Origin: a virus
IMG/VR virus record: IMGVR_UViG_3300043783_000034
Location: 1-64,000 of that record
DNA: 64,000 nucleotides
Direction: 5' to 3' (one strand)
Each line of letters starts with the position of its first letter. Position 1 is the stretch's first letter. Below are positions 21,147 to 45,598 of this stretch, piece by piece. The notes under the pieces were generated by a model. It worked only from the letters and a program-made list of their open reading frames with translations, did no database searches and was not told where the DNA came from. A program made the translations under genes and the position numbers.

Positions 21147-22115
21147 ATGAGTGGCTTCCAGACTCAGGTTTATAATCAAGAAGCCCAGGCGGTCGCGGGC
21201 GACTTCGCGTCGATGAACCAATATATGACGCACCCAGCTGGCCCGGGGGGCCTCATCGCTGGCGCGTCGGGCGTCACCATCGGCGCCTTCGCTTGGACGG
21301 CGCCGCCGGATGACCCGAACGGTGCCAATCAGATCGTCAACAGCTTCGGCAATGGCGGAAATGTCGCTGGCTTCGTATTGCGCAATCAGCAGGGCCTCAA
21401 CACGGCCTTCCTAAGCGATGCCGGAATGGTCATCCAGAAGGGCTCGCCCGTCACACTGATGACCGAAGGCGACTACTGGATCGTAAACAATGGCACGACC
21501 GAAGCCGTGCCGGGCCAGAAGGCCTATGCCAACTTCTCGAACGGCCTTGCCAGTTTTGCCGCCGCAAACACGCCGTCGACCGGCGCAACGGCGACCGGAT
21601 CCAGCATCGCGGCCGAGACATTCTCGGTCACAGGCTCGATCGCGAACGATGTGCTGTACGTCACCGTGGTCGGGTCCGGTACCGTCTATCCCGGCGCGAC
21701 GATCAGCGGCACCGGCATCACGACTGGCACGCAGATCATATCGCAGCTCACCGGCACCACCGGTGGCGTCGGCACGTACCTCGTCAATTACGGCCAGCAG
21801 ACCGTGGCCTCGACCACCGTGTCGGGAACCTACGGCCTGATGACGATCGGCACGCTCACTTCGACCGCCACCTTCGCGGTCGGCCAGGTCCTCAACGTCA
21901 GCGGTGCCGTGGTGGCGAACACCACGATCACTGCCAACGTCACCGGTAGCGGCGGCACGGGTGGGACTATGGTGGTCAGCAACAACACAGTGGTGTCGAG
22001 CCAGACCATTTCCTCGGTGAGCAATGTGGAGACGAAATGGTATGCAGTTAGCGCCGCAGTTGCCGGGGGTCTGGTCAAGATTTCGAGTTGGATCGGAACG
22101 CAACTGCAAGCGTAA
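21147..22115 (+). CDS. Capsid decoration (cement) protein with inserted beta modules
   Basis: 322 residues. Residues ~1-145 and ~292-322 match a structural-cement/decoration protein layout: SGFQTQVYN, AVAGDFASMN, GASGVTIGAFAWTAP, FVLRNQQG, MVIQKGSPVTLMTEGDYWI, then VETKWYAVSAA at the end. Residues ~150-291 are two copies of the recurrent GTQIISQLTGT..GGVGTY module seen in four other virion proteins. The gene lies just upstream of the major capsid gene. The insert probably projects from the capsid surface. Confidence 0.8.
   Translation: MSGFQTQVYNQEAQAVAGDFASMNQYMTHPAGPGGLIAGASGVTIGAFAWTAPPDDPNGANQIVNSFGNGGNVAGFVLRNQQGLNTAFLSDAGMVIQKGSPVTLMTEGDYWIVNNGTTEAVPGQKAYANFSNGLASFAAANTPSTGATATGSSIAAETFSVTGSIANDVLYVTVVGSGTVYPGATISGTGITTGTQIISQLTGTTGGVGTYLVNYGQQTVASTTVSGTYGLMTIGTLTSTATFAVGQVLNVSGAVVANTTITANVTGSGGTGGTMVVSNNTVVSSQTISSVSNVETKWYAVSAAVAGGLVKISSWIGTQLQA
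21594..22017 (+). repeat. Recurrent virion beta-module, copies in decoration protein
   Basis: Encodes two ~70-residue units. The first carries PGATISGTGITTGTQIISQ and GGVGTY. Bases 21726-21757 are identical over 32 nt to 36757-36788 in the tail sheath gene. Confidence 0.75.
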
Positions 22116-22174
22116 CGTCGGCGCGCGCGCAGGAACACAGGAGCCCGACAGCGGGCGAACGGGGAGCACGGACG

Positions 22175-23311
22175 ATGTTGGACCTCGAGCGCAAGATGGC
22201 TTTCGACTCGGTCGGCGACGCCCGCGTCGCTTTCCAAGCCATCAAGCAGGATCTGGCGACGAGGGGCATCGTGCTTCCGCCCCAGATGCAGCGATTCCTG
22301 ACGACACGCGAGATCGAGCAGGACGTGCTCGCGATGGACGCCGCGAGCGGGTTGCCCGGTCCGCTCTCGACCGATCCGAACTCGGCCATTCCGTGGATGC
22401 TGACCACCGCGATCGACCCGGAGATCATCCGCGTCATCTTCTCACCGCTGGCCTTCGCCGAGATCCTCGGCGAGCGAAAGGCCGGTGTGTGGACCGAACA
22501 GCAGCGCATGTTCCCGATCGTGGAGTCGACGGGTGAAGTCTCCAGCTATGGCGATTTCAACAACAACGGTCGCGCGGGCGCGAACTACAACTATCCGTTC
22601 TTCCAGTCGTACCTGTTCCAGAGCATTCTGAAGTACGGTGAACTTGAGATCGATCGCGTCGGCCTCATGAAGATCAATTACGTGTCGGAACTCGGCCTCG
22701 CGTGCGCCGACCTGCTCAACCGCTTTCAAAATCTGTCCTATGCGTTCGGCGTGCAGAACCTGCAGAATTACGGGATCCTCAACAATCCGTATCTGTCTGC
22801 CGCGCTGACGCCCGCCGTAAAGGCGTGGGGTGGCACAGGATGGTTCGATAACGGATCGCCAGCCGCCACCGCGAACGAAGTCTACAATGACATCATTGCG
22901 ATAATAACGCAGCTTGTCGCGCAGACCAACGGCGCACTCGACATCAACTCTCCGATGACGCTGGCGTTGAGCCCGAACAGCATGATTGGCATGACGTTCG
23001 CAAATTCCTTCGGTGTCTTCGTGAAGGCGCTGCTCAAGGAAGGCTATCCGAATCTCAAGATCAAGCAGGCGCCGCAGTACGGCACCCAGACGGCGAACAA
23101 TCCGCAGGGCTATTCGACTGCCGGCAATGTCGTGCAGCTCATCGCCGACAAGATCCAGAACCAGACGGTCGCGTATGCGGCCTATAACGAGAAGCTTCGC
23201 GCGCACAAGATCGTGCCAGAACTCTCGGCCTGGATGCAAAAGCAGACGTCCGGAACGTGGGGGACGATCCTGCGCTCGCCAGTCGCCGTCGTTACTATGA
23301 TCGGTGTTTAA
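22175..23311 (+). CDS. Major capsid protein (DUF2184-type)
   Basis: 378 residues. ATG 22175 is chosen for the GGGGAG site upstream and the start of homology (MLDLERKMAFDS). Features of the DUF2184 coat family: SAIPWMLTTAIDPEIIRVIFSPL, ILGERKAGVWTEQQRMFPIVE, QSILKYGELEIDRVG, and a C-terminal VGVHLQ-like P-domain region. It builds the icosahedral shell with an HK97-type fold. Preceded by scaffold and decoration genes. Confidence 0.85.
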   Translation: MLDLERKMAFDSVGDARVAFQAIKQDLATRGIVLPPQMQRFLTTREIEQDVLAMDAASGLPGPLSTDPNSAIPWMLTTAIDPEIIRVIFSPLAFAEILGERKAGVWTEQQRMFPIVESTGEVSSYGDFNNNGRAGANYNYPFFQSYLFQSILKYGELEIDRVGLMKINYVSELGLACADLLNRFQNLSYAFGVQNLQNYGILNNPYLSAALTPAVKAWGGTGWFDNGSPAATANEVYNDIIAIITQLVAQTNGALDINSPMTLALSPNSMIGMTFANSFGVFVKALLKEGYPNLKIKQAPQYGTQTANNPQGYSTAGNVVQLIADKIQNQTVAYAAYNEKLRAHKIVPELSAWMQKQTSGTWGTILRSPVAVVTMIGV

Positions 23312-23347
23312 CCGGCGCGGCTCATCACTTTTAGGAGCATTGATAAA

Positions 23348-24043
23348 TTGAGCGACAACTTCAAGCGCCCGTGCGCAAGCTGCGGTAACCCCGTCCACCG
23401 CATGTCGAAGGTCTGCAAGGTTTGCGGCCACGCCTCGCCGTGGGTACCCAGCCCGCAGCCGGAGCTCGGGAAGCCTCCCGAAGCTGCGCCGCCCGCTGCT
23501 CCTGCCCCGCCGCGCGCCCCCGAGGCGCCGGCTGTCCAGTCCGCACTGAAGGCGCCGCGCACTGTCACGGTGGCCTGCAAGTTCCCAGGCGGCATGCGCC
23601 TGCAGCTTTCCCGCCCCGAGCAACGATTCGAGCCCATTATGGGCGGCGGCACGCGGGAATACACCGTCTACATTCCGACCGGGCGGCCGTGGTTCGTGAG
23701 CGGCCCCGCCTATCCGGTCGGCGTCGTCCCGACGGGCTTTCCCAAGGCGCCTGAAGTCGAAGGCGGCATGGCGCTCACGCATGGCATTCCAGCCGACTTC
23801 TGGGAGCAATGGGTCGAGCAGCACAAGCGGGCCGAATACGTTGTCAGTGGAATCATCTTCGCGCTGCCGAACGCCGAGGACGCCGCCATCAAGGCGCGCG
23901 AGCATGAGAAGGAATTGTGCGGACTCGAACCCCTCAGTCTCGACGAGGACGAGAAGGGCAAGCTCAAGGATCCGCGTGTGCCGAAGCCGATCAATCTCGC
24001 CGTGGCGAAGCTCGCGACCGAACAACGTACGGCTGCAGGGTAA
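23348..24043 (+). CDS. Zinc-ribbon hypothetical head protein
   Basis: 231 residues from TTG 23348 (GGAG about 10 bases upstream). The N-terminus has a zinc ribbon, CASCGNPV...CKVCGHAS. A Pro/Ala-rich linker follows, then a globular region: VACKFPGGMRLQLSRP, EYTVYIPTG, GIPADFWEQWVEQHK. It lies between the capsid and connector genes. Function unknown; a head-associated role is inferred from position. Confidence 0.6.
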   Translation: MSDNFKRPCASCGNPVHRMSKVCKVCGHASPWVPSPQPELGKPPEAAPPAAPAPPRAPEAPAVQSALKAPRTVTVACKFPGGMRLQLSRPEQRFEPIMGGGTREYTVYIPTGRPWFVSGPAYPVGVVPTGFPKAPEVEGGMALTHGIPADFWEQWVEQHKRAEYVVSGIIFALPNAEDAAIKAREHEKELCGLEPLSLDEDEKGKLKDPRVPKPINLAVAKLATEQRTAAG

Positions 24044-24051
24044 CTGGGCCG

Positions 24052-24558: not shown

Positions 24559-24570
24559 ACGGAGGCGACG

Positions 24571-24798
24571 ATGGACATCGACGTGCTGGCGCGGCAGGTG
24601 CGCGAACTGACCGCCTTCAAGGACAAATACGAGCCGATGCTCAAGGTCGTTCAGGCCAAATACGATCTCGTGCGCGACAAAACCGAGCGCGAAGCCGATG
24701 CGGAAAAGACGCGCCCGGCCGACGACCCGGACCGCGCTGATCGTGCGCCGCCCCCTACGCCGCCGGCGGCCGAGCCGCAGCCGCAGCCGTCGGCGTAA
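24571..24798 (+). CDS. Small coiled-coil protein
   Basis: 75 residues: a charged helix (LARQVRELTAFKDKYEPML...) followed by a Pro/Ala-rich tail. GGAGG precedes the ATG. No family recognised. Confidence 0.5.
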   Translation: MDIDVLARQVRELTAFKDKYEPMLKVVQAKYDLVRDKTEREADAEKTRPADDPDRADRAPPPTPPAAEPQPQPSA

Positions 24799-24851
24799 CG
24801 CTGGCAGCGTCCAGCAACCTCGAACACGTCCTAAACAGACCCACGAGCGCC

Positions 24852-25124: not shown

Positions 25125-25130
25125 CCTGTC

Positions 25131-25385: not shown

Positions 25386-25386
25386 A

Positions 25387-25836: not shown

Positions 25837-25930
25837 CCTCAATGTGTCTGTGACGCAGATTGTTTCCCGCGCGGCGTAAAATTATGATCGCGCGCGATTT
25901 TCATCGCTGCGGATCGAGGGGACAACCAAT

Positions 25931-28318: not shown

Positions 28319-28800
28319 GCGACAGGTGCATCACCTGCGCCCGCTGGCTTGTGCGGCAGGAAACTGTCTACAGCGACGGGACGACAATCGTTCGGTGGCG
28401 GGCGTCCAGCGGCCACGGAAAGTGCCGGTTCTTGAACATTGAGACGCCGGCTGAGTTTGGGTGCGCAAAGTTCGAGCAAGCGCGTCATAGTTCTGAGGCA
28501 AAAGTGTTTTTTGAAGTGCAAGTCGAGACAGAGCGCAAGGACGGCGCTCCATGGCAACACTTCACGATGATCGAATGCCCCGCGTGCAGTGGGCGCCCGG
28601 GACTAGGCGAGGCCGGCCGGTGCAAATGCGCCGGCACCGGAAAGACACGCCTCTATGACGACGGCTATGTCGGCGACGAGCACACTCGCAAGCACCCGAA
28701 GGAACTGGAACGGCCGCCTATCGCGGTCGAGCCCGGCACCATCTTGCAGGCGCTCCCCGAAAAGGCGCCAGCGGCCCTGTGGAATGAAATCCCGCAATGA
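28315..28800 (+). CDS. Zinc-finger protein, DnaJ-like CxxCxG motifs
   Basis: 161 residues. The N-terminal part has CITCARW...KCRF...CAKF. The C-terminal part has CPACSGRPG and CKCAGTG, DnaJ-type zinc motifs. ATG 28315 overlaps the previous stop, and its own stop overlaps the FkbM start. Possibly a binding or chaperone-like accessory. Function unknown. Confidence 0.5.
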   Translation: MSDRCITCARWLVRQETVYSDGTTIVRWRASSGHGKCRFLNIETPAEFGCAKFEQARHSSEAKVFFEVQVETERKDGAPWQHFTMIECPACSGRPGLGEAGRCKCAGTGKTRLYDDGYVGDEHTRKHPKELERPPIAVEPGTILQALPEKAPAALWNEIPQ

Positions 28801-29585
28801 TCAGGGAAATGCCGCACCGGTACGGGCCTCACCCGATCTACGTCCCTGATACGGACAACGGGCAATATGCGTGGCTGCTGACCACCCAGGCGTCGCCCGA
28901 GGACGAATGGATTGACTTGGTCCTCGCCCTGATGGCGCTACGTCCTCGGGGCGTGGCGCTGGACGGGGGTGCGAACTTCGGGTGCTGGACGGTAGCCCTC
29001 TCCACGGAGGCCTATCAGGTACACGCCTTCGAGCCCCAGCGGCAGGTCTGCGGGCTACTGCGCCGGACAGTTCGACCGCTCGGCAACGTATTCGTTTACC
29101 AGAAGGCGATCGGCGAGCATTCCGGGCTCGCCCGCATCCCGGATCTCGACATGATCAACGGGACAAACTTCGGCGGCGTGAGCATGAATATGGCGCACTG
29201 GGAGTACCCCGACGCCCCGATGCAGATGGTCGCCGTGGCCACCATCGACAGCTTCGACTTCCAAGACGTGTCATTCATCAAGGTCGACGTCGAAGGCGAA
29301 GAGGCGTCCGCACTTGAGGGCGCGCGCGATACCATCAAGCGATGCAAGCCGATCCTGTTCATTGAAGCGCTGTTCAAGGGCACGGACGATCTGTCAGATG
29401 AGGCGAAGCACGAGCGCGCCATCAAACGGGCCCGAAAGCTGCAAGACACAATCGAGGCGATGGGATATGCGGTGGACCATCGCGGCCCGAACTATCTCTG
29501 CTTGCCGCTTGTGAGGGACAAATGCCTGCCGACCTCAACGCCATGGTGGAATCGGCCCGCGCCGCCGTTGAGAGCGACCAAGTAG
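28797..29585 (+). CDS. FkbM-family methyltransferase
   Basis: 262 residues. A SAM-binding Rossmann pattern is visible: GVALDGGANFGCWTVALS (motif I), VHAFEPQRQV, VATIDSFDFQDVSFIKVDVEGEE, and ALEGARDTIKRCKPILFIE. FkbM enzymes O-methylate sugars and related groups in glycan and antibiotic synthesis. ATG overlaps the previous stop. Its 3' end overlaps the glycosyltransferase gene by 64 bases, so the two are expressed together. Inferred role: methylating a glycan made by its neighbour, on the virion or the host envelope. Confidence 0.85.
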   Translation: MIREMPHRYGPHPIYVPDTDNGQYAWLLTTQASPEDEWIDLVLALMALRPRGVALDGGANFGCWTVALSTEAYQVHAFEPQRQVCGLLRRTVRPLGNVFVYQKAIGEHSGLARIPDLDMINGTNFGGVSMNMAHWEYPDAPMQMVAVATIDSFDFQDVSFIKVDVEGEEASALEGARDTIKRCKPILFIEALFKGTDDLSDEAKHERAIKRARKLQDTIEAMGYAVDHRGPNYLCLPLVRDKCLPTSTPWWNRPAPPLRATK

Positions 29586-31201
29586 CCGCTGCCGGCGTTT
29601 TCTACCGATCGATCCTTCGGGAAACATCGCCCCCCAAGACGGCGACGGAGCGAGTAGCTCACGGCGAGGCATGCTGGTTCAATGGCCGCCTGGCGCTCGC
29701 CCGCGGCAAACTGGGCGAAGCGGCCGACTGGTACAAAGAAGCACTCGACGCCGACCCGCGTGCGACCGACTACCGCATCGAGTTCGTCATCCGGTGCCTG
29801 ATCCCCATGGGCGCGCTCAAGGACGCGAGGATCGAGGCCGAGCGCGCGACGCGCATCGATCCGCACCACCCGATGGCTTGGCGGACACTTGCGAGCGTCG
29901 AGCATTCCATGAGCAATGCCGAAGGCGCCATTGCGGCCTATGACAGGCAGCTTGAGCTTCTGGATGCGGGAACGCCGGAATACGCGAATGCGCTGGTCGA
30001 TCGGATATCGATCGCGATCGACACCGCAGATTATGTGACCGTCCGGCGCCTATGTGATCGCGTGATGGGCACCGAGCGTCAGGCCGATGCGCTGCACTGC
30101 CTCGCGATGGCGGCCTACCGGGAGGCCGAACACGAGAAGGCAATCGAGTTATTCGACGCAGCGATCGCTGGCGGCTGCTACGACCCGGCGCTTGCGCGCT
30201 GGAACAAGTCGCTTGCCCTGCACGCAATCGGCCAATGGGAAGAGGGCTGGTCCGATCACGAGCAGCGCGGCAAACAGAGAACCGACCGCGCGATGGCGCT
30301 GATGATGAATCGCTTCGTGATGCCGATATGGGACGGCGAACCGGCACCGGCACGGCTTCATGTACATCAGGAAATGGGATCAGGCGACGTCATCGCGATG
30401 GCGCGTTATCTGCCGATCTTGGTTCGCCACGGCTATGACGTTCGGCTCGAAGTCAACGAGCAGATGGTCGACCTGATGCGCGCGAGCCTTGACGGCGTAA
30501 CCGTGATGGCGAAGGCGCCAGATTACCCGGGCGCATTGGGCATTCCGCCGTTCGACTACCACGTGCCGATGCTCTCGCTGCCGTATCTGTTTAAAACGAC
30601 GGTAAACACTGTGCCAACTTGGATGCCATACTTGAAGGCGCCGACCAATTTTCTGAGATTCCAAAACCCAGGGCTCAAGGTCGGCCTATGCTGGTCATCA
30701 GGCATTCGCGACGGCGGAGTGTGGCTTCGCGAATACGGGATGCGCAAGTCCATGTCATTTGACGATTTACAGCCACTCATCAAGGCAACCGACCACCAAA
30801 TACAATTCTTCTCACTACAGATCGGTCCGGAGCGCAGACAAGTAGCGTGGCCCGTCTATGATATTGTTTTGCCCAAAAAACCCACTTGGGGCGAAACGGC
30901 CGATCTCATCGCGCAACTCGATCTTGTCATCACCGTCGACACATCGGTGGCGCACCTCGCTGGCGCCATGGGCAAGCCGGTGTGGGTCATGGCGCAGCGC
31001 GACTGTTCGTCGTGGCACTTCATGTGCTGGCGCCCTGACGCAGTATGGAACGACCGCAGCCCGTGGTATCCTTCGGCGCGCGTCTTCCGCCAGCACCGGT
31101 TCAACGAACCGCACAAGTGGGACGAAGTCGTCGAGGACGTGACCAAGGCGCTCATCGAATGGGCCGACGCGCAAAGGGCAAATCTCGACGCCGCTGAATA
31201 A
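29522..31201 (+). CDS. TPR-glycosyltransferase (GT9/GT41-like)
   Basis: 559 residues. TPR-like helical repeats fill the N-terminal ~220 residues (ADWYKEALDADPRATDYR, GAIAAYDRQLELLD, AIELFDAAIAGG). A GT-B type glycosyltransferase follows, with LKVGLCWSSG in its second half and DLVITVDTSVAHLAGAMGKP near residue 470, the donor-binding signature of heptosyltransferase/SPINDLY-like enzymes. Location within late virion genes suggests glycosylation of virion proteins. Modification of host polysaccharide is the alternative. Confidence 0.82.
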   Translation: MPADLNAMVESARAAVESDQVAAAGVFYRSILRETSPPKTATERVAHGEACWFNGRLALARGKLGEAADWYKEALDADPRATDYRIEFVIRCLIPMGALKDARIEAERATRIDPHHPMAWRTLASVEHSMSNAEGAIAAYDRQLELLDAGTPEYANALVDRISIAIDTADYVTVRRLCDRVMGTERQADALHCLAMAAYREAEHEKAIELFDAAIAGGCYDPALARWNKSLALHAIGQWEEGWSDHEQRGKQRTDRAMALMMNRFVMPIWDGEPAPARLHVHQEMGSGDVIAMARYLPILVRHGYDVRLEVNEQMVDLMRASLDGVTVMAKAPDYPGALGIPPFDYHVPMLSLPYLFKTTVNTVPTWMPYLKAPTNFLRFQNPGLKVGLCWSSGIRDGGVWLREYGMRKSMSFDDLQPLIKATDHQIQFFSLQIGPERRQVAWPVYDIVLPKKPTWGETADLIAQLDLVITVDTSVAHLAGAMGKPVWVMAQRDCSSWHFMCWRPDAVWNDRSPWYPSARVFRQHRFNEPHKWDEVVEDVTKALIEWADAQRANLDAAE

Positions 31202-31406: not shown

Positions 31407-33902
31407 TTGCCTGCTTCTATTGTCAGCATCGGCTCCAACTCGACGGTCGTAACCGGCAAGGTCACGATCACCCTTTCGGCTGCGGTGCCGGCTGGTGCTC
31501 AGATTGTCGTCCTTGCCTCTTATAATTCGACGGGCAATGCAGGAAGCTGTGCTGACTCTGGCAGCAATACCTATTCAAGCGGGCCATTCGCGAACAATAA
31601 TGGCAACGCTACTCTCGGCACATTGGCATCTTATATAGCGACGGCTAATGCCGGTCTTGCAAATGGAGGTACAATTACCTTTACATTGCCGAGCGGCGCA
31701 ACATTGGCATCGGTTGCGGCTGTTTATTTGCTCGGCGTAGTGACCGGCACTCTGTCCCAAAGCAATAGCGGCAGCGGAGTAGGCACCAACCCCAGTATTT
31801 CCACTGTCGCCAATGTGCAATCCGGTCAGGCCGCCGTCGCGGCTGTTTCCGGATCGTCGCTCATCACTTCCTTTACTCAGGACACCGCTGATGGCTGGTC
31901 AAGCCCAATCGGCGATGTATCCAATGCCGCACCCGTTTTGGCTGGTGGGTCGCAGGTTATCCCAGCGTCGGGAAGTTTGACTTACGCGCCGACTTTCGGC
32001 TCGTCCGATAATTGGGCGGCGGTCATCCTTATTTTTCTGCCGTGGACGAACTGGATACCGGAAGATCATCTGAAACCCAATCAGCACCCGCGCCCCGAGC
32101 GCAGCGGCGCCTTGCAGATCGGCGAAGGCAATATCAGCGGCACAGAATATCCGATCATACAGTGGTTCAATTACGGGTGGCCGGTCCAGCCCCCGATGAT
32201 CCGACATCCCATGCCAGAGCGCGCCGGATCGATCATGCCATTGTCGCAGATCGATACGCTTTTCCCGTGGTCGCTTTTCGGATGGGAGCCATATTCGGTC
32301 ACCTACGCAAAAGTAGGCGTACGAGCGCGGCTCGTGCAGGCGCCGGATATCGGTGCGTACGTCGCGCCACCGCCCTTTACGATTTACCGCAGCGAGATCC
32401 AATCCTGGCAGTCGCCGCACCCGCGCCCGGAGAAAGGAGGCTCGCTTGCTGGCGGCGACTTCGGCGTTACTTTTCAGCAACTGCTTCCCCAATTCTATCA
32501 GGGATGGGAAGTGCTGCTCTGGCAGCCGCCGCACCCGCGCCCGGAGAAGGGCGGATCGATCGCGCGCGGCGACGACGGTACCGAGGCCAAATTCCAGTTC
32601 GTGCCTCCGTCCTTCATTTGGGCGGCCGAAGTTCAATATTCCTACGTGCTGCCGCGCCAGCCGATGCCTCTGCGAGATCCAGCGTGGCGGGTTGATAACG
32701 GTGCCGATTGGCCGACCCGTCCGTGGCTGTTCATGGGGTTCGAGGTACAGCAGCCCCCACCGCCGCATCCCCGGTCGGAACGGTGGGCAGCAGTCTTCCC
32801 AGAAGATGACGGTATCGAGGCGCCACTGTATCGATGGCAGAATTATGGGTGGCAGATCGAGCCACCATCGCCACCGCATGTGCGCTTCGAGCGCGCCGCC
32901 GGCGTGCTCCCGATCGTCAACCCGGACGGCACGTTGCCCCCGTTCTATCAATGGGGTTGGGAAAACGCGCCGGCGCTGCCGCCGCATCCGCGCCCCGAGC
33001 GATTCGGCGCCAATGCCCGTGGCGATGATGGCACCGAGCTCAATCTCGCATTTTGGGTCACCGCCGGTCGTGGGTCGCAGGACTTCCAGCCCCCCCACCC
33101 GCGCCCGGAACGCGCGGGATCGACCCTCAAGGGCGACGAAGGAATCGAGGGCATCTATCATTTCGTAACGGCACCCTTCGCTTGGTCACTCGACGTCCAT
33201 TACGCCTACCCGCATCGACCATTCCGCGATGCCTCCTGGCGCGGCGACGATGGCGCGCAGGGCTTGTTCTCGCAGTGGATAAACGTCGGCTGGGAGCCGA
33301 CGCCGCCGATGCTCTACTTCCCGCGCCAATGGCGCGCGGGCGCAACGATGCGCGGCGATGATGGCAACGAAGGTCGCTATCAGTTTTGGGTCAATCGCGG
33401 GTGGGAGGAGACCACCGTCGACATTCCGCGGCGCCGCGTCGAGCGCGTTGGCACGCTTCCTGGCGACGATGGCATTGAGGCGCTCTACAAGCCCTTCATT
33501 CCAATCTTTACGTGGTGGTTCCCGTACCAACCACAGCGCATTCCCTTCAATCGGGAGGCCGCTATTGCGGCCGGTGACCACGGCACGGAATTGCCTTTCG
33601 TCCCGCCGTTCGTCGGCGGCGGAAAATTGTTCGAACCTCCGCAATATTGGCGCGCACGGTCGAAACTGGATGTTCCCCGGTGGGAAGAAGGCACCGAAGC
33701 GCCAATGCAGCAGCAGCCGATCACCGGCTGGGACGGTACACCACCTGTGCTGCAGATACCGTGGTTCAAGTTCGCGGCCGCCTTCATGGCGGGCTCGCCG
33801 GGCATCGACGCCGTGTACTACGTGCCGGTCTTCTATGCGAAGACGACGATCACGTGGATGCGCGGCGTAACCGTGGTAAAAGGCGAGTGGTCACCAGATT
33901 GA
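31407..33902 (+). CDS. Giant repeat protein with PPHPRPER/GDDGTE repeats
   Basis: 831 residues from TTG 31407 (GGAG five bases upstream). Residues ~1-210 are a Ser/Thr/Ala-rich beta domain (ITLSAAVPAGAQIVVLASYN). From ~215 to ~820 there are about 15 imperfect units of 36-42 residues. Each runs: hydrophobic/aromatic start, PPHPRPER.G, (R)GDDG.E, an aromatic segment, then a GWE end. Several copies are diverged (for example RPFRDASWRGDDG). No family is recognised. The regular Trp, Pro and acidic loop suggest a propeller, solenoid or fibre, probably a virion appendage. Confidence 0.7.
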   Translation: MPASIVSIGSNSTVVTGKVTITLSAAVPAGAQIVVLASYNSTGNAGSCADSGSNTYSSGPFANNNGNATLGTLASYIATANAGLANGGTITFTLPSGATLASVAAVYLLGVVTGTLSQSNSGSGVGTNPSISTVANVQSGQAAVAAVSGSSLITSFTQDTADGWSSPIGDVSNAAPVLAGGSQVIPASGSLTYAPTFGSSDNWAAVILIFLPWTNWIPEDHLKPNQHPRPERSGALQIGEGNISGTEYPIIQWFNYGWPVQPPMIRHPMPERAGSIMPLSQIDTLFPWSLFGWEPYSVTYAKVGVRARLVQAPDIGAYVAPPPFTIYRSEIQSWQSPHPRPEKGGSLAGGDFGVTFQQLLPQFYQGWEVLLWQPPHPRPEKGGSIARGDDGTEAKFQFVPPSFIWAAEVQYSYVLPRQPMPLRDPAWRVDNGADWPTRPWLFMGFEVQQPPPPHPRSERWAAVFPEDDGIEAPLYRWQNYGWQIEPPSPPHVRFERAAGVLPIVNPDGTLPPFYQWGWENAPALPPHPRPERFGANARGDDGTELNLAFWVTAGRGSQDFQPPHPRPERAGSTLKGDEGIEGIYHFVTAPFAWSLDVHYAYPHRPFRDASWRGDDGAQGLFSQWINVGWEPTPPMLYFPRQWRAGATMRGDDGNEGRYQFWVNRGWEETTVDIPRRRVERVGTLPGDDGIEALYKPFIPIFTWWFPYQPQRIPFNREAAIAAGDHGTELPFVPPFVGGGKLFEPPQYWRARSKLDVPRWEEGTEAPMQQQPITGWDGTPPVLQIPWFKFAAAFMAGSPGIDAVYYVPVFYAKTTITWMRGVTVVKGEWSPD

Positions 33903-34255: not shown

Positions 34256-34645
34256 ATGAACCTCAACTTTCTCGCCGGGGGCGTTGCGGCTGCGGTCAAT
34301 CCGCAGATGCGCGTCAAGGTGCAGGTCAGCACCGGATGGACGCTGAGCCCAAACGGGGACGGCTCGCGCATTCCGTCCTACGCGCCGCCGGTCTATGTGT
34401 TCGGCCAGATCCAGCCCGTCACATGGCGCGATATCCAGCACCTTGACGGATTGAACCTGCAAGGCACGCGCCGCGTGATATACCTCAACGGCAGAATCGA
34501 AGGGCTTGTGCGACCGACGAATCAGGGCGGCGATCTTATAACGCTGCCGGATAAGTCGGTGTGGCTGGTGACGCTCATCATCGAGGGCTGGAGCCCGACC
34601 GCCGGATGGACGAAGGCTGCGATCCAACTGCAAAACGGGAGCTGA
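34256..34645 (+). CDS. Tail completion/neck-type hypothetical protein
   Basis: 129 residues. QIQPVTWRDIQHLDGLNLQGTRRVIYLNG and DLITLPDKSVWLVTLIIEGW match a recurrent phage protein found between head-completion and tail-terminator genes. The exact role is not established. Ends three bases before the next ATG. Confidence 0.6.
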   Translation: MNLNFLAGGVAAAVNPQMRVKVQVSTGWTLSPNGDGSRIPSYAPPVYVFGQIQPVTWRDIQHLDGLNLQGTRRVIYLNGRIEGLVRPTNQGGDLITLPDKSVWLVTLIIEGWSPTAGWTKAAIQLQNGS

Positions 34646-34647
34646 TT

Positions 34648-35220
34648 ATGCGCAAGCTATACTTGGCTGCTGCGACATGGATTGCCCTCACGGCAATGGC
34701 ATGGGCACAGGGCGCCACTGGCCTCCTGATCCAGCCTCTCGGTTATTGCCAGCTTTCCGCGACGCAGCTTTCTTCGGCGATCGGCCTTGCCTCGTGCACG
34801 CGGGCAAGTTTTACCGGCACCGGATCGGGTACGAACCTGACGACGACAAGCGTCACGGGAATCATCAAGGTCGGCGATACGGTGACGGGAACGGGCGTGC
34901 CTTCGGGGACGACGATTCTCTCGCAGACCAGCGGCACCGCTGGCGGCGCCGGCGTCTACGTGACCAGTGCCACGACTACATCATCGAGTGCCAGCCTTAC
35001 GTCGGGCGGCATCCCTTCGCGAGCTAATCTCGTGGCGCTACAAGCCGAAACGGCCAACGTGCGCTACCGCGATGATGGCGGCGCACCCACGGCCTCGATC
35101 GGGGAAATTATCGTCAGCGGGCAGCAACCATTCCTGTATTCGGGGACACTGTCGACACTCCAATTCATCGCGGCAAGCGGCAGCCCGCTTCTTGACGTGC
35201 TGTTCTATTATTCGCCATGA
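34648..35220 (+). CDS. Secreted-type small virion protein with inserted module
   Basis: 190 residues. Signal peptide MRKLYLAAATWIALTAMAWA-QG. The core (LIQPLGYCQLSATQL...; LVALQAETANVRYRDDG; QPFLYSGTLSTLQFIAA) matches a small phage structural protein usually ~100 residues long. Residues ~52-120 interrupt it with one recurrent module ([19 protein letters not shown]...GGAGVY). Its TGA overlaps the next ATG. Confidence 0.6.
   Translation: MRKLYLAAATWIALTAMAWAQGATGLLIQPLGYCQLSATQLSSAIGLASCTRASFTGTGSGTNLTTTSVTGIIKVGDTVTGTGVPSGTTILSQTSGTAGGAGVYVTSATTTSSSASLTSGGIPSRANLVALQAETANVRYRDDGGAPTASIGEIIVSGQQPFLYSGTLSTLQFIAASGSPLLDVLFYYSP
34801..35007 (+). repeat. Recurrent virion beta-module, one copy
   Basis: ~69 residues. 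Close in sequence to the second copy in the baseplate J-like protein ([25 protein letters not shown] in both). Confidence 0.75.
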
Positions 35221-35297: not shown

Positions 35298-36050
35298 ATG
35301 GCCTCGATCTCTCCGACACAATCGAACATCACCGCCGCGCTTTATGCATTCCTGACATTCATTTTGCCGCCGAATACCTTGGTGGTGCTCGCGGCCGATA
35401 ATCGCGTCACTGAACCGAGCCAGACTAACTTCGTCGTCATGACGCCAATTCGCTTCGAGCGCATCGCCACCAACATCGACACCGGCGCAGACGTGAAGTT
35501 CACAGGATCCATTAGCGGCAATACGCTCACTGTCGAGAGCGTGGCTATCGGGGTGCTCGCGCCGGGTGCCATCATCAACGGGCCAAGCATTCCCCCGGGC
35601 ATCACGGTTGGCAGTCAGCGGAGCGGATCTCCGGGCGGCGCTGGCGTCTACGTTGTCAATGGCGCCCCACCAACGGTCCCCGTGGAAACCATGTCATGCG
35701 GGGCGATCGGGTTGTTGCAGTTGGCAGTCGTCACGGTGCAACTTGATTTTCATTCCGGAACCAATGGCAGCGCCAGCGCGGCGTCGGATATGGCGCAGAC
35801 AGTGTCGACGGTGCTGCGCGACGAGCAAGGCGTCAACTTCTTCGCAACGCTCGCGCCGCCCCTCAACGGCGTCGTGCCGCTCTATGCGGATGATCCGCGC
35901 TACATGCCTTTCATCAATGATGCGGAGCAATATGAATGGCGATGGGTGCTCGAAGCGCGCTTCGAGGCCGACCAGCTTGTCAGTCTGCCGCAGCAGTTCT
36001 TCGACTCGGCGACGATCACGGTTGAGAGCGCGACGGCGCTACCGGATTAA
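35298..36050 (+). CDS. Tail terminator-like protein (LIC_12616-type) with inserted module
   Basis: 250 residues. The ends (ISPTQSNITAALYAFLTFILP; then QLAVVTVQLDFHSGTNGSA...MRFE-type ...YEWRWVLEARFEADQLVSLPQQFFDSA) match neck/tail terminator proteins. Residues ~66-134 carry one recurrent module (APGAIINGPSIPPGITVGSQ...GGAGVYVVN), placed between two core strands. It sits just before the sheath gene, as expected. Confidence 0.7.
   Translation: MASISPTQSNITAALYAFLTFILPPNTLVVLAADNRVTEPSQTNFVVMTPIRFERIATNIDTGADVKFTGSISGNTLTVESVAIGVLAPGAIINGPSIPPGITVGSQRSGSPGGAGVYVVNGAPPTVPVETMSCGAIGLLQLAVVTVQLDFHSGTNGSASAASDMAQTVSTVLRDEQGVNFFATLAPPLNGVVPLYADDPRYMPFINDAEQYEWRWVLEARFEADQLVSLPQQFFDSATITVESATALPD
35493..35699 (+). 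repeat. Recurrent virion beta-module, one copy
   Basis: ~69 residues, the most diverged copy; key residues G-AIINGPSIPPGITVGSQ and GGAGVYVVN are retained. Confidence 0.7.
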
Positions 36051-36150
36051 GTCTTCTTGGCTCGCTACTCCCCTGACGCACTAGCACTTTCGCGGTCGCC
36101 CGCTATGGTCAACCCGGCTCGCTGTGGCAGCCAGGGGAGCGCCGCCGCCC

Positions 36151-38148
36151 ATGTCCTCAATCCCGTCCCAAGAAATTGTCAATACACAGGGCACGGTACT
36201 GGCGGCCGGCGGTGCGGGACTCCAATTCAACGGCCTTTTTCTGACGAACAACACGCGCGTGCCGATCGGCACCGTGATGCAATTCGGCAGTCTTGCCGCA
36301 GTCCAGCAATACTTCGGCGCATCGTCCGTCTTTGCAGCGCGTGCGGCGGTCTATTTCACCGGCCCGGCCAATGCGACGCAGACGCCGCAAGGCCTTCTCG
36401 TCACGCAATATCCGTCGACGAATGTCGCCGCCTATCTCCGGGGCGGCAATATCTCGGCGCTGCCGCTCGCTACGCTGCAGACCTACAATGGCACGCTCTC
36501 CGTCACCATCAATGGCAGCCTTAAGTCGGCGGCCATCAACCTCGCCACGGCGGCAAGCTTCTCGAATGCGGCCGAACTCATCGGCCAAGGCCTCGGTATT
36601 GAGGGCCAGCAAGCGGCAACCTTCACGGCCTCGGTCGGCGGTACGTTCACGTGTACGTCCACCGGAACGACACTCAACGTCTCTGCGGTTCTGACGGGCA
36701 GCCTACAGTCCGGCGACATCGTCAGTGGCACCGATGGCACGAACTCGCTGCCGGGCGGCACGCAGATCATATCGCAGCTCACCGGCACGCCTGGTGGTGT
36801 CGGCACGTACCAATTGAGCGCGGCGGCGACGCCGGGGAACCTCGGCAGCTGCACCGTCACGTCGCTATCGACTGTGCTCAATGTCACTGCGATCGCGAGC
36901 GGCGCCCTCGCCACGGCCGACGTCGTGACCGGCACCAGCATTCCCGCAAATACGTACATCACCGGCCAGATCTCCGGGACGACGGGCGGCATCGGCACGT
37001 ATGGCCTGAGCGGCACCGGCCACACGATCGCCAGCGAAGCGATGACGGCCTTCGGGCCGGGCGTGGTCTACGACAGCATTTCCGGTGCCTTCGTGATCAA
37101 TTCGAGCACGGCTGGCGCGACGTCGACGATCACCTTCGGATCGGGCGCGCTCGCGACGAATCTACTGCTCACCCAGGCGACCGGTGCGGTACTCTCGCAG
37201 GGCAGCGCTCCAGCGACGCCGGCCGCGTTCATGACCGCTATCCTGTCGCAAACCGTGAACTGGGTCTGTTTTGCGACCGATTTTGATCCCGACGGCGGCT
37301 CCGGGAATGCGCAAAAGCAACTGTTTGCGGCGTGGAAAAATACCGCGCTCGGCGGCAATCGCTTCGCATATGTTTGCTGGGACAACGACGTCACGCCAAC
37401 CGTCAGCGTGCCGGCGACGGCAAGTCTCGGTTACATTCTCGATCAGAACGGGGACTCGGGAACGGCACTCATCTGGGAGCCAGCTGGCGCCGTCGGAGAC
37501 GCTGATTACTATTCCGCCTTTGCGATGGGTTGGGCGGCTTCGATCAATTTCAGTGCGCCGAATGGTCGATCAACGCTCGCATTCAAGAATCAAGCTGGCC
37601 TCGTGCCAACGGTTTCTGATCCGCTTACGGCGCAGAACCTCGGCGGCAATCCGCAGGCGCCCGACAGCTTCGGCAACGGGTATAGCTTCTATGGCGCTTA
37701 CGGCACGGCCGGTCAGAGCAATACGTGGTTCCAGCGCGGTTTTATCACCGGGCCGTACGAATGGTTCGACGGATACGTCAACCAGATATGGCTGCTGAAC
37801 CAATGCCAGATCGCGTTGCTTACCGCATTCGGCAATCTCACTTCGCTGCCGTTCACGACCGCCGGCCAAGGCATCATCAGCGAGGTATTGCAGCCGTCCA
37901 TCCAGGCGGGACTAAGCTTCGGCGCCTTCGGCCCTGGCCCGCTCACGACCTCGCAACAGGCGCAGATCAATCAGCAGGCCGGCGCGAACATCGCCGCGAC
38001 GATCTCGGCGCAAGGCTGGTATCTCCAGTTCATCGCGGCGTCGCCAGCGGTCAAGGCCTCGCGTGGGCCGCAGCAGCTCGTACTATGGTATCTCGACAAT
38101 GGCGTGATCCAGTCGATCAGCCTGACCAGCGTCGCCGTCGTGGGCTGA
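36151..38148 (+). CDS. Contractile tail sheath (DUF3383-type) with inserted modules
   Basis: 665 residues from ATG 36151 with GGGGAG upstream; an in-frame GTG exists at 36124. DUF3383-like body: LFLTNNTRVPIGTVMQFGSLAAVQQYFGASS, AATFTA strand, VNWVCFATDFDPDG, FAYVCWDND, ADYYSAFAMGWAASINF, NGYSFYGAYG. Residues ~162-300 hold two recurrent modules, placed in a variable region of the sheath, presumably outside the tube. This identifies the phage as a myovirus. Confidence 0.85.
   Translation: MSSIPSQEIVNTQGTVLAAGGAGLQFNGLFLTNNTRVPIGTVMQFGSLAAVQQYFGASSVFAARAAVYFTGPANATQTPQGLLVTQYPSTNVAAYLRGGNISALPLATLQTYNGTLSVTINGSLKSAAINLATAASFSNAAELIGQGLGIEGQQAATFTASVGGTFTCTSTGTTLNVSAVLTGSLQSGDIVSGTDGTNSLPGGTQIISQLTGTPGGVGTYQLSAAATPGNLGSCTVTSLSTVLNVTAIASGALATADVVTGTSIPANTYITGQISGTTGGIGTYGLSGTGHTIASEAMTAFGPGVVYDSISGAFVINSSTAGATSTITFGSGALATNLLLTQATGAVLSQGSAPATPAAFMTAILSQTVNWVCFATDFDPDGGSGNAQKQLFAAWKNTALGGNRFAYVCWDNDVTPTVSVPATASLGYILDQNGDSGTALIWEPAGAVGDADYYSAFAMGWAASINFSAPNGRSTLAFKNQAGLVPTVSDPLTAQNLGGNPQAPDSFGNGYSFYGAYGTAGQSNTWFQRGFITGPYEWFDGYVNQIWLLNQCQIALLTAFGNLTSLPFTTAGQGIISEVLQPSIQAGLSFGAFGPGPLTTSQQAQINQQAGANIAATISAQGWYLQFIAASPAVKASRGPQQLVLWYLDNGVIQSISLTSVAVVG
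36634..37050 (+). repeat. Recurrent virion beta-module, two copies in sheath
   Basis: Units SGDIVSGTDG...GGTQIISQLTGT..GVGTY and TADVVTGTSIPANTYITGQ...GGIGTY. Bases 36757-36788 are identical over 32 nt to 21726-21757. Confidence 0.75.
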
Positions 38149-39075: not shown

Positions 39076-39248
39076 ACGTGCCGGCGACCGTCGAGGCACT
39101 GCTCACGTGCAAACCCGAGCTCTACCCGGCTTTTTGCACCGTACTCGGGCTCGAATCGCTGCATGACGTTCTCGAGGTGATCGAAGTCGAGGCCTACAAC
39201 GCCCACGTCGCTGATGAGCGGCGCAGGGCAGCGGAGCGGGGGTCGTAA
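39072..39248 (+). CDS. Tail assembly chaperone, downstream -1 frame part
   Basis: 58 residues if started at GTG 39072 (GTGA overlap): VPATVEALLTCKPELYPAFCTVLGLESLHDVLEVIEVEAYNAHVADERRRAAE, helical. More likely it is also made as the C-terminal extension after -1 frameshifting at 38994-39000, which would add ~82 residues to the upstream protein. It overlaps the tape measure start by one base. Confidence 0.65.
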   Translation: MNVPATVEALLTCKPELYPAFCTVLGLESLHDVLEVIEVEAYNAHVADERRRAAERGS

Positions 39249-40654
39249 TGGTCATCGATTCGATGGTGCTGGAATTTAATCTTGACCCTCATCAGTTCAC
39301 TCAGGCGCAGCGTGAAACGATCGATGGGTTGCGGCGGATGGAGTATGAGGCCGAGCGTCGCGGCGGTGCAATTGAGGCCGCCATCAGCAAAATGGGGGGC
39401 TCTTTCTCGGTTGCTAAGGCGAATGCACTTGGCCTCCTAGGCACATTTATCGGTGCCGAGATGGTTGGAGCGCTGAACAATATAGCGGAGCTCGATAGCC
39501 GCATCGGCCGCGCGGCAAAGCGGTCTGGCGACAGCGTCAAGGATCTGTCTCAGTGGGAAGGCGCGGTGCAGGCCATCGGCGGCTCGGCCGGAAGCGCCAC
39601 CGAAAACATCGAACGCCTCGAGGATACCATCAACAAGGTGAACATGGGCGCCGCCAACCTGAGCCCGATGGCGGCCATGCTGTTCAACCGCATTGGTGCG
39701 AACGTGCGTACCATGACGCCTCATGATGTGGCCGATTTGCCGATGCGGCTCGCCGAGTTCTTCGACCGCGAGCGCGCGGCAGGCCGTAGCACCTCGGCGC
39801 AACAAGCCTCGGCGCTCCGCGAAACCGGCCTGTTCAACCAGGACATGATTGATTTGATCCTCCGCGGCGCGCGCGCCATGCGCGAACTGCGGGATTCGAT
39901 CAAGGGGGCGACCGACGAGAGCGTGGAAGCATCCAATCGGTTCATTGAAAACAAACAGAAAATTGACCAGTTCTTTTCGAACGTCTTCCGATCGATCCTC
40001 GACGTGTTCATGTATCCGTTCCAGTCCGACGACTTTCACGCCAAAATCCGCAAACAGGCCGAGGATGCCATGGCCGGTAAAGGGCCTCCAGGCGTGGCTA
40101 CGGCTGCCGCTGGTGCGGTTGCGGCACCGTCCGCTGGTGGTCTTACCCCCGAGTTCTCGGCCGCCCTGGCGCGCCTACAGGCGAATATGCCGCCCGGCAT
40201 GTCGTTCTCGATTACCTCCGGGTTCCGGACCCGAGATGAGCAGGCGGCCTTATTTGCCTCCCGGCCGGCGCTCGCAGCCCCGCCAGGGCATTCCCGGCAC
40301 GAATTAGGCATGGCGGCCGATCTCAAGTTCTCTTCGCCTGCGGCCGAGGCTTGGGCGCACGCGCACGGTGCCGACTTCGGGGTGCGCTTTCCCGTCGGCC
40401 GCGAGCCGTGGCACGCCGAACCCGAGCGCGGCGCCAGTTTCAACGAGCGATTCGGTTCGATGCCGGGTCTGAGCGGGCGATCATCCGCGCAACCGCCGGG
40501 GTCGCGGACGGAAAACAAGACCGCCAATGTGACGGTCTCGATCAATAAGGTCGAGGTCAACAGCGCGCGCGATGCGGCCGACGTTGCTAATGGGATTGAT
40601 CGTCACATTGAGCGGGTGGCGAAGGCGATGCCGGCGAACTACGGACTCGTTTAA
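39248..40654 (+). CDS. Tape measure protein with M15 peptidase domain
   Basis: 468 residues, short for a tape measure. The N-terminal ~260 residues are helical with a hydrophobic ANALGLLGTFIGAEMVGAL stretch. Residues ~311-395 form an M15/VanY-type D,D-peptidase domain: FSITSGFRTRDEQAAL, the metal site HSRHELGMAADLKF, and EPWHAE. The C-terminus is a coiled coil. It sets tail length and cuts peptidoglycan during injection. Length predicts a short tail of at most ~70 nm. Confidence 0.8.
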   Translation: MVIDSMVLEFNLDPHQFTQAQRETIDGLRRMEYEAERRGGAIEAAISKMGGSFSVAKANALGLLGTFIGAEMVGALNNIAELDSRIGRAAKRSGDSVKDLSQWEGAVQAIGGSAGSATENIERLEDTINKVNMGAANLSPMAAMLFNRIGANVRTMTPHDVADLPMRLAEFFDRERAAGRSTSAQQASALRETGLFNQDMIDLILRGARAMRELRDSIKGATDESVEASNRFIENKQKIDQFFSNVFRSILDVFMYPFQSDDFHAKIRKQAEDAMAGKGPPGVATAAAGAVAAPSAGGLTPEFSAALARLQANMPPGMSFSITSGFRTRDEQAALFASRPALAAPPGHSRHELGMAADLKFSSPAAEAWAHAHGADFGVRFPVGREPWHAEPERGASFNERFGSMPGLSGRSSAQPPGSRTENKTANVTVSINKVEVNSARDAADVANGIDRHIERVAKAMPANYGLV

Positions 40655-40678
40655 GGAAACGCGCGTTCAGCGTGCTAT

Positions 40679-42719: not shown

Positions 42720-43432
42720 GTGACACCTCGTCCTACGGGTACGGGCAACTCCAGCCCGAGGACTTCAATCACGAGATGGCCGTGGTCGCGGCGATCGCGC
42801 GCCAGATGATCGCCGAGCTCGATACCATCAAGCTGGTGCAGGTCGCCGCAGTGCATGGTGGCGGTGTGGCGCTCGCTGGCACTGTCGATGTGGTGCCGCT
42901 CGTCAATCAGGTCGACGGCCAATTCAATCCGGTGCCGCACGGCACGGTCTATGGCGTGCCATGGACGCGCGTACAGGGCGGCCCGAATGCCATCATTTGC
43001 GACCCGCAAGTCAACGATATCGGATGGGTCGCATGCTGTGATCGCGACATTTCAAAGGCGGTCGCGCAGAATGGCATGCTGTCGGGCAGTTCGCTGCTCG
43101 GCACTGGCGTCAATCCCGGCTCTTGGCGCAAATACAACATCTGCGACGGCATCTATGTCGGCGGCGCGCTCAATGTGTCGCCGACGCAGTATCTTCAATT
43201 CACCGCTACCGGCGCGCGCCTCGTCGACAAGAACGGAAATTCGGTCGCGCTTGGGCCCAACGGAATCACCCTCACGGACGCGAACGGAAACGTGATAAGC
43301 ACGACTTCAGCCGGAATCGCGGTCACGCTCGCGTCCGGGGGGGACTTCGTCATCAATGGCATCGGCTTCCTCGCCCACATCCATAGCGGCGTCACCGCCG
43401 GCAGCGCCGACACAGGGCCACCGGTCCCGTGA
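42716..43432 (+). CDS. Baseplate spike (gp45/gpV-like)
   Basis: 238 residues. An N-terminal helix (AVVAAIARQMIAELDTIKLVQV) leads to an OB-fold region (PLVNQVDGQFNPVPHGTVYGVPW; GWVACCDRDISKA). A repetitive beta-helix (FTATGARLVDKNGNSVALGP) follows, and then the apex FLAHIHSGVTAGSADTGPP with the H-x-H iron-binding tip. It pierces the outer membrane. Confidence 0.85.
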   Translation: MSDTSSYGYGQLQPEDFNHEMAVVAAIARQMIAELDTIKLVQVAAVHGGGVALAGTVDVVPLVNQVDGQFNPVPHGTVYGVPWTRVQGGPNAIICDPQVNDIGWVACCDRDISKAVAQNGMLSGSSLLGTGVNPGSWRKYNICDGIYVGGALNVSPTQYLQFTATGARLVDKNGNSVALGPNGITLTDANGNVISTTSAGIAVTLASGGDFVINGIGFLAHIHSGVTAGSADTGPPVP

Positions 43433-43436
43433 CCTT

Positions 43437-43553
43437 CTGACATTCGATGAGGCTCATCGCCTTCTCGAATACCGCCCTTTAATGGGAGACTTTTCGGCAG
43501 CTTATTGGCGCGAGGCCCAGAAGCAATTCGGCGAGTTTGCGAGGCTTCGGTAA
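43437..43553 (+). pseudogene. HNH homing endonuclease remnant
   Basis: The frame reads LTFDEAHRLLEYRP, the usual N-terminus of phage HNH endonucleases. It then runs directly into SAAYWREAQKQFGEFARL, the usual C-terminus (..Y..A....FGEFAR..). The nuclease core expected between them is absent. There is no good start codon. It looks like an internally deleted homing endonuclease lying between two baseplate genes. Confidence 0.55.
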
Positions 43554-43930
43554 TGGCTGCAACACTTTTGCTAGACCGTTCCACGTGGGATCTTTGCCTC
43601 GATGCGCAAGGGAATATAGCCGTGGCGACGGCTCCATATGCCTTGGCTCAAGATGCGGCCAGCGCAATCATGACAGTCTTGGGAACCTGCTGGTGGGATA
43701 CGACCGTCGGCGTGAACTGGTCGCAATTCCTCGGCGCCACGCCACAACTCGCGCCGCTCAAGGCCGCACTCATCGCGGCGGCGCTCACGGTGCCTGACGT
43801 TGCCTCGGCACAAGTCTATTTCAATTCGATCACAGATCGCATTGTGTCCGGGCAGGTGCAGATCACAGCCGAGTCGACGGGACAAACCGCCGTCGCGCCA
43901 TTCCAGGTCGTCAATCCGCAGGGAGTGTGA
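43553..43930 (+). CDS. Baseplate wedge (gp46/GpW-gp25-like)
   Basis: 125 residues from ATG 43553. LDRSTWDLCLDAQGNIAVATAPYALAQDAASAIMTVLGTCWWDTTVG is the gp46/DUF2634 pattern, followed by the C-terminal beta region ITAESTGQTAVAPFQV. It precedes the J-like protein as expected. Confidence 0.78.
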   Translation: MAATLLLDRSTWDLCLDAQGNIAVATAPYALAQDAASAIMTVLGTCWWDTTVGVNWSQFLGATPQLAPLKAALIAAALTVPDVASAQVYFNSITDRIVSGQVQITAESTGQTAVAPFQVVNPQGV

Positions 43931-43933
43931 GCC

Positions 43934-45598
43934 GTGGGCACGACCGCCGTACCTCCGATCACCTTTACTGCGGCCGGATGGCAAATCCCATCGGGCCCCG
44001 CGATCCTCGCTGGCGTGCAGGCGGACATTCAGGCCGCCTTTGGCGTCGCGCTCGATTTCAATCTCAACACGCCGCAGGGGCAGTTGTCCTCAAGCGAAGC
44101 GGCGAACATCAACAACACGTACCAAACCTTCGGCTATTACACGCAGCAGGTCGACCCGGCCTATGCGAGCGGCCGCTTTCAGGACGCGATCGCGCGCTTC
44201 TATTTTCTCACGCGCAATGCGGCCCAGCCGACCACGTTGCAGGTAAATTGCTTCGGCCTCGCGCAATTGATTCTGCCGACCGGGGCAACGATCATCGACG
44301 AGGCCGGCAACCTCTACCAACTCACATCGTCCGTCACGATCGCTGCTGGCGGTAGCGTTGTGGGATCCTTCGCCTGCGCAGTGCCGGGTCCGGTTCCGGT
44401 GCCGGAGACAGATGACGTTTCGATCTATCAGCAAATTCCAGGCTGGGACTCGGTCGCCGTCGCGTCTGGCACACAGGGTGTGAACACGGAAGGGCGACAG
44501 GCATTCGAGCAGCGCCGACAGGATAGCGTTGCCGGCAACAGCTTTGGGCCAATTGGCGCCATCATCGGCGCCGTCGCGCAAGTACCGAATGTCACTGATT
44601 ATTTCGGCTACAGCAACAATACGGCGGCGCCCGTCACCGTTGGCGGCGTCTCGATCGCCGCAAACGCGATTTACATTTGTGTTGCCGGCGGCGACCCGGT
44701 TGCGGTGGGGACGGCTATCCTGTCAAAAAAGGGGCCTGGCGCGCCGATGACCGGAACGACCCAGGTCACGGTCTACGACACGAATCCGCTTTATGCGTCT
44801 CCTGTCCCCTACACCATCAAATTCCAGGTCGCGGCACCGCTGCAGCTTCTTTTTGAGGTCGAACTCGTCGCTTCTCCGCTGATTCCATCGAATGCGATCC
44901 AACTCGTTCAGGCGGCGCTTATTGCCGCAGTAACGCAAGGCATTCTGCCGAACGGCGCCGCGCAGCAGGTGCTCTCTCCGGGTCTGCGCGCGCGCATCAA
45001 TTCGGTGATCTACGCGCAACAATATACACAAGCCATCAATCAGCTTGGCGCTTGGGGCCTCGTTGCTTCGATTCAGATTGGCTCGGAGAATACGCCGGGC
45101 GCCGTGGTGACAGGCACAATCTCTGGAACGGTCCTCACGGTCTCGGGTGTAACATCGGGTACACTCGCGGTCGGCCAAGCGCTTTTCGATCCGCTCAACG
45201 ACATCATCAACGGCACGGTCATCGTATCGCTGGGCAGCGGCACGGGAGGCACCGGAACCTACAACGTCAACAACTCGCAAACCGTTGGCGGCGCGACTTT
45301 TACAGGCACCGGCTCAGGCTTCAATCTCACTGCCAGCAGCGTCACAGGCGTCATCGGCAGTGGGGACGTCATCAGCGGAACGGGCGTGCCGTCTGGCACC
45401 ACCATCATTACTCAGACGTCCGGAACGCCCGGCGGCGCTGGTGTCTATGTCACGAGCGCCTCGACCACTTCGTCCGGCGCCACCATTACCACCAGCAAGA
45501 CAATCTCGGCCGCCTCGGCCAATCAGACGCTCGTGTCAGTTCAGGCCAACCAGGAGCCGCAACTCGTGGCGGCTAATATCGTCGTGACGCAGACATGA
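43934..45598 (+). CDS. Baseplate J-like protein with inserted modules
   Basis: 554 residues from GTG 43934. J-like core: [77 protein letters not shown], and [17 protein letters not shown]. About 130 residues near the C-terminus (nt 45106-45498) are two recurrent modules, followed by ~35 native residues. The J protein forms the outer baseplate wedge that triggers contraction. Confidence 0.8.
45106..45498 (+). repeat. Recurrent virion beta-module, two copies in baseplate J
   Basis: Units ending [13 protein letters not shown] and ([13 protein letters not shown]...) [10 protein letters not shown]. The second is closest to the copy in the 34648 gene. Confidence 0.75.

Follow-up and report, generated by a model that had tools for sequence, protein, structure and literature searches.

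A small all-beta domain, very probably inserted into several outward-facing virion proteins of an E217-like phage

Introduction

Immunoglobulin (Ig)-like domains on phage structural proteins were reportedly described by Fraser et al. in 2006. These small beta domains are optional additions to virion proteins, among them those of the capsid, the tail and the sheath. They are exchanged horizontally and have been proposed to bind carbohydrates weakly (discussed in PMC9230969). In the lactococcal 936 phages, carbohydrate-binding modules (CBMs) are found at the neck, the tail and the distal tail protein, and binding to host cells was demonstrated for two of them (PMC6669499). Extra beta-rich domains also interrupt the conserved core of phage tail sheaths, away from the tube (PMC9230969). 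Here we analyze a 64-kb window (positions 1 to 64,000) of the 73.9-kb IMG/VR virus record IMGVR_UViG_3300043783_000034, which belongs to a soil-type, E217-like, contractile-tailed phage and holds eight copies of a module of about 68 residues. We are confident that this module is an undescribed all-beta domain inserted in frame into outward-facing proteins; no description of it was found in the literature, an absence that weighs little since only open-access texts were covered.

The module resembles each of these systems in part. Like the Ig-like domains, it is optional and exchanged among different virion proteins, a likeness of behaviour and not of membership. Neither the proteins of the window nor 107 module carriers matched an Ig-like, Big_2, fn3 or PKD Pfam family. 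Unlike them, it is one family that sits on the cement, gateway, sheath and baseplate proteins of a single particle, by true insertion. As with the 936 phage CBMs, several places along one virion are occupied, but those CBMs have recognised folds and are found on siphophages, whereas the module belongs to no known CBM family and is nearly devoid of tryptophan. As in the sheaths with extra domains, a core is interrupted by beta-rich sequence; the sheath family found here, DUF3383, is not mentioned in that survey according to a term search of PMC9230969, and the module is also present on head, neck and baseplate proteins.

Results

Eight homologous units in one virus record

The initial annotation, made from the DNA sequence, had proposed eight copies of a beta-rich unit spread over five virion proteins. 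A profile built on these eight units found exactly eight in the whole 73.9-kb record. Because a search of the window with its own units is circular, the profile was rebuilt from 318 units taken from other genomes only. A six-frame search with this second profile recovered the same eight units (domain independent E-values from 1e-8 to 5e-22), at intervals matching those proposed, and nothing else above noise. Moreover, when the window units were shuffled 1,600 times with their composition preserved, none of the products scored with it. The eight segments are therefore homologous units of one domain family.

The unit matched no Pfam or NCBIfam family and no PDB sequence. An AlphaFold (AF2) model of a tandem pair is all-beta, with a mean predicted local distance difference test (pLDDT) of 86.5, and the last strand of one unit continues into the first strand of the next with no linker between them. 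The composition of 235 units is dominated by serine plus threonine (31.5%) and glycine (17%), and the charged residues K, R, D and E together make up 3.3%.

The units interrupt family cores and are missing from close homologues

First, the cores are present but free of units in three syntenic isolated phages, Acetobacter phiAO1, Aeromonas 2_D05 and Klebsiella KP12 (zero module matches at E<=10), the baseplate J region of KP12 being undetected within the stretch compared. Second, tblastn searches with the sheath, baseplate J and cement proteins matched 196, 886 and 107 records of isolated phages, respectively, and no record covered 80% of its query: the matches stop at residue ~388 of baseplate J and ~133 of the cement protein, and those to the sheath fall in at least two pieces. 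The gateway protein, whose unit is left unmasked by the low-complexity filter, gave matches to its core only, and the pair of baseplate units, part of which that filter masks, gave none. Third, the C-terminus of the module-free phiAO1 cement protein (residues 144-164) aligns with residues 295-315 of the window protein, so that the cement units precede a conserved C-terminal tail and do not form a C-terminal extension.

Two further sites show the same position with and without units. The orthologue of a small secreted-type protein at two related loci (L114, positions 4001-4204, and L115) lacks exactly 68 residues (204 nt), that is one unit, and is 75% identical to the window protein across the C-terminal 68 residues; these phages carry about 13 units at other sites. 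The core of this small protein had no match among isolated phages. Neither target-site duplication nor terminal repeats are visible at the junction between empty and filled site, where short marks could be eroded at that level of protein identity. The collar protein, aligned from ten genomes, is free of units in the window and in the relatives G006 and G008; six further relatives have a single unit at this protein, and G004 has two. All units of these 7/9 relatives lie at the same point, after the motif PxYATPG. Since the two-unit G004 is the neighbour of the window in the phage tree, at least one loss or a repeated gain must have occurred at this site.

By these sequence comparisons, the units are insertions and not ordinary parts of the family cores. 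Module-free orthologues thus exist, as the initial annotation had asked, and a single domain family occurs in several distinct outward-facing protein families whose homologues do not always carry it. We also considered that the segments might be ordinary family parts in which low-complexity Ser/Thr/Gly sequence has converged. Their composition is indeed biased. However, no shuffle scores, the fold is predicted with confidence, and clean empty sites and module-free orthologues occur in each family, so we give this reading a negligible probability; the empty sites refute it.

Carrier proteins

The E217-like structural set of cement, collar, gateway, sheath, tube and baseplate J cores is present in the usual order (Table 1). 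The core families are PF22758, PF22755 (E 0.0012, under its curated cut-off), PF23961, PF11863, PF22764 and PF04865, in the same order as in 2_D05. In the cement protein, residues 4-158 match PF23982 (E 9e-20) and PF22758 (E 7e-13), and the matching PHROG, phrog_2122, is a minor head protein. The AF2 model of the gateway protein (pLDDT 78) matches the neck proteins of Pa193, Pam3 and E217 (E 1e-6 to 2e-5), the sheath matches the E217 (gp31) and Pa193 sheath chains in PDB by sequence, and baseplate J matches E217 gp44 (E 2e-17). The virion proteins of E217, Pa193, Pam3 and XM1 share the family cores of the carriers, and the chains of the first three are shorter than those of the window (sheath, 504 vs 674 residues; gp44, 417 vs 554; gateway, 156-183 vs 250), which is consistent with the absence of units. 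Of the five virion proteins first proposed as carriers, four held up, and the fifth, a small protein that starts with a signal-peptide-like sequence and matches no known family, is only a putative member of the virion.

Table 1. Carrier proteins, module units and related features of the window
Feature	Position	Strand	Basis or remark
Cement/decoration protein (E217 gp24 / Pam3 gp6 / XM1 gp53 type), two units	21147..22115	+	PF23982, PF22758, phrog_2122
Cement unit 1	21624..21824	+	Both profiles
Cement patch near-identical to 36757-36811	21726..21780	+	32 nt exact, 51/55 overall
Cement unit 2	21807..22013	+	Both profiles; overlaps end of unit 1, no linker
Homologue of the collar protein (E217 gp28 type); its module site, at about residue 45 (near 34390), is empty	34256..34645	+	Alignment
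Small protein, signal-peptide-like N-terminus (by eye), one unit	34645..35220	+	Putative virion member
Small-protein unit	34798..35001	+	204 nt / 68 residues, comparison with L114/L115; profile interval 34804-35001
Neck gateway / tail terminator (E217 gp29 type), one unit splitting the core	35298..36050	+	PF23961 E 1.5e-16, two stretches
Gateway/terminator unit	35493..35696	+	Both profiles
Tail sheath (DUF3383, E217 gp31 type), two tandem units splitting the core	36124..38148	+	PF11863 E 5e-94, two stretches; phrog_205
Sheath unit 1	36640..36840	+	Both profiles
Sheath patch near-identical to 21726-21780	36757..36811	+	Sequence comparison
Sheath unit 2	36844..37047	+	Both profiles
Baseplate J-like wedge protein (E217 gp44 type), C-terminal region with two units	43934..45598	+	PF04865 E 6e-10, phrog_6 E 7e-43
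Baseplate J unit 1	45101..45304	+	Both profiles
Baseplate J unit 2	45290..45490	+	Both profiles

Distribution among phages and proteins

A single-unit query of viral contigs returned 72 loci, while queries with the sheath and the major capsid protein (MCP) found no relatives among these contigs. Most relatives are metagenomic contigs, and those found with the module as query are biased toward carriers. In nine relatives, units were found on the cement, collar, gateway, sheath and baseplate J proteins, and none in the MCP, tube, adaptor, tape-measure-like, hub, spike-like or p45595 proteins. The cement protein has one to three units (mostly two or three) in 31/31 related proteins counted, and baseplate J has zero to three. 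Sheath proteins were also tallied without units, a group in which fragments may be present. When loci were fetched through the neighbouring p45595 gene and not through the module, 12/14 baseplate J proteins contained units. Prophage records from isolate genomes have six units each.

The 107 non-redundant carriers include 22 cement, 22 baseplate wedge, 21 sheath (phrog_205), 13 terminator and 7 collar-type proteins. The module is also present in an unrelated sheath family (phrog_165, locus L040) and in a head-and-packaging protein of phrog_3287 (L069), and structural matches in BFVD include an HK97-type MCP as well as P22 gp10-like, tail fibre and tip J proteins. PHROG 21413 and PHROG 38233 (tail fiber), which are whole-protein clusters without a described domain, contain the module as one part. 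Among bacterial genome contigs, at least two module loci were found among the matches listed, and a class-wide bacterial sample had the module in 2/385 genomes. One module-carrying reading frame also holds an IS1595-type transposase domain. Separately, two BFVD entries from the giant virus Indivirus ILV1 (A0A1V0SCQ2 and A0A1V0SDM6) have a module-like structure in collagen-like proteins, with 29-35% identity over the aligned part.

The module sits on exactly those outer proteins that form lattices (cement, sheath and gateway), which would suit a stabilising clamp, in which units of adjacent cement, sheath and neck subunits touch, so that the particle resists drying, pressure or premature contraction. 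A role in stabilising the sheath disc has likewise been proposed for the extra sheath domains of phage 812 (PMC9230969). However, the copy number per site is free (0-2 at the collar, 0-3 at baseplate J), tail-fibre-like proteins also carry the module, and its low charge offers little basis for specific clamps. We therefore regard a clamp as unlikely.

History of the units

In a tree of 81 units, the nearest neighbour of 66 units belonged to the same host protein (mean of 17.6 and maximum of 34 over 2,000 shuffles), in 64 cases in another genome. Neighbours from the same genome were not enriched (4 vs 6.0 expected). Since the units cluster by host protein and show no excess of neighbours within a genome, most insertions date from long ago and have been passed on vertically with the host protein. 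The recent spreading between loci that had been suspected in general was thus not borne out, except for one patch of ~55 nt shared by the cement and sheath genes. Its core, the 32-nt identity between 21726-21757 and 36757-36788, is exact, as first noted, and a strong outlier. By comparison, the next longest common string is 17 nt in 195 within-genome pairs and 20 nt in 1,356 between-genome pairs. Of 17 shared residues, 15 are encoded by the same codon vs 7.4 expected. The orthologues in G004 lack the cement/sheath identity, and the 32-mer occurs in no IMG/VR contig searched. Together these data point to a single local conversion event in this lineage, to which the shared patch is restricted.

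These results also bear on whether the module could be a neutral or mildly selfish passenger, a beta domain that is easily tolerated, persists wherever loops leave room for it and has no selected function. The turnover at the collar and small-protein sites and the presence of the module in many unrelated phage proteins would fit such a passenger. On the other hand, the glycine/threonine scaffold is kept across deeply diverged phages, no cement protein counted is without units, the units are inherited with their host protein, and the junction at the empty site has no mobile-element structure. In our opinion a passenger is improbable.

A possible adhesive coat

An inserted domain forming a multivalent, weakly adhesive coat is what we consider the best explanation as a whole, with about even chances of being right. 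Under this explanation, one to three units are inserted in frame per outward-facing protein and would stand out from the particle. In E217 there are 204 copies of the sheath, and gp24 trimers cover the three-folds of the capsid (PMC10329688); from these copy numbers we infer that several hundred or more units could be displayed. The resulting coat would be multivalent, with individually weak contacts to host-surface or extracellular glycans or to other surfaces, and such weak adhesion would make encounters more frequent, which has been suggested for the Ig-like domains of phages and demonstrated for some CBMs. Whole units would occasionally recombine in frame, and sites would arise or disappear in this way. 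A multivalent surface coat is in keeping with the units being confined to the outer layer, optional and variable in number. Adhesion itself, which we prefer by analogy with phage Ig-like domains and 936 phage CBMs, is a tentative proposal, somewhat short of an even chance.

Several observations weigh against this explanation. First, a PDB Foldseek search with the tandem-pair model gave no significant fold (best E 0.67), and hence no function to borrow. Second, the 235 units are poor in aromatic residues (W 0.1%, Y 2.0%, F 1.7%, H 0.2%), unlike typical carbohydrate-binding platforms, and no aromatic platform of the CBM type was seen in their sequences. Third, the surface location of the units is derived by homology with E217, in which, moreover, the gateway ring is only partly exposed. 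Among the 107 carriers, CBM family matches were limited to one protein with a CBM_5_12 hit, counted over the whole protein. The weak Foldseek matches that recur are F1-ATPase and Uba1 chains, with no Ig cluster at the top; as a lead from the model, they suggest a small beta-barrel.

Alternatively, the units could be glycan acceptors, O-glycosylated by phage enzymes and masking the particle. Their Ser/Thr content (31.5%) and the presence of FkbM and GT9-like domains within the morphogenesis cluster of the window argue for this possibility. However, FkbM is absent from 8/8 module-bearing relatives and is unique to the window record among the nine records searched, none of the nine has a GT2 glycosyltransferase, and neither FkbM nor the tetratricopeptide repeat (TPR)-glycosyltransferase has a BLAST match in the structural regions of the relatives. 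Glycan acceptance, one of the functions first suggested, is weakened by these results and we consider it very unlikely.

Neighbouring genes

Within the morphogenesis cluster, the stretch 28797-31201 encodes an FkbM-type methyltransferase (28797-29585) and a TPR-glycosyltransferase with a GT9-like match (29522-31201). At 17931-19382, a NUDIX domain (PF00293, E 6e-16) is fused before a DUF2213 protein, whose 2_D05 homologue is annotated as a head maturation protease. An 831-residue protein (31407-33902) has many copies of the motif PPHPRPERxGxxxxGDDGxE and no family match, and a tail protein (39248-40654) contains a VanY D-Ala-D-Ala carboxypeptidase domain (PF02557, residues 301-363). In the fibre-like protein at 47842-50841, a segment (PTRAGDIVYWNGSNWVTLAGNNSGTQCLVENSSGSPTWTNCG) is duplicated almost exactly, and the protein also matches CBM_5_12 weakly. 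In the module-free Acetobacter phage phiAO1 (L109), a catalase and a Cu-Zn superoxide dismutase are encoded among or beside the structural genes.

Discussion

Whereas Ig-like domains and CBMs are known on one or a few virion proteins per phage, here a single undescribed family is found on the head, neck, sheath and baseplate. This is a feature of a whole clade of environmental myophages, in which natural empty sites provide ready-made controls. A domain family missing from Pfam can also mislead annotation, as two PHROG clusters were matched through the module. The role of optional beta domains on virions, which has long been debated, becomes testable by comparing proteins with and without the module at several sites in close relatives. 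More broadly, this beta-barrel-like domain may serve as a general-purpose coat module of environmental viruses, having entered surface loops time and again in the capsid, cement, collar, gateway, sheath, baseplate and fibre proteins of unrelated phages, and possibly giant-virus collagen-like proteins, and being displayed from end to end of a particle in hundreds of copies, a prospect that we put slightly below an even bet.

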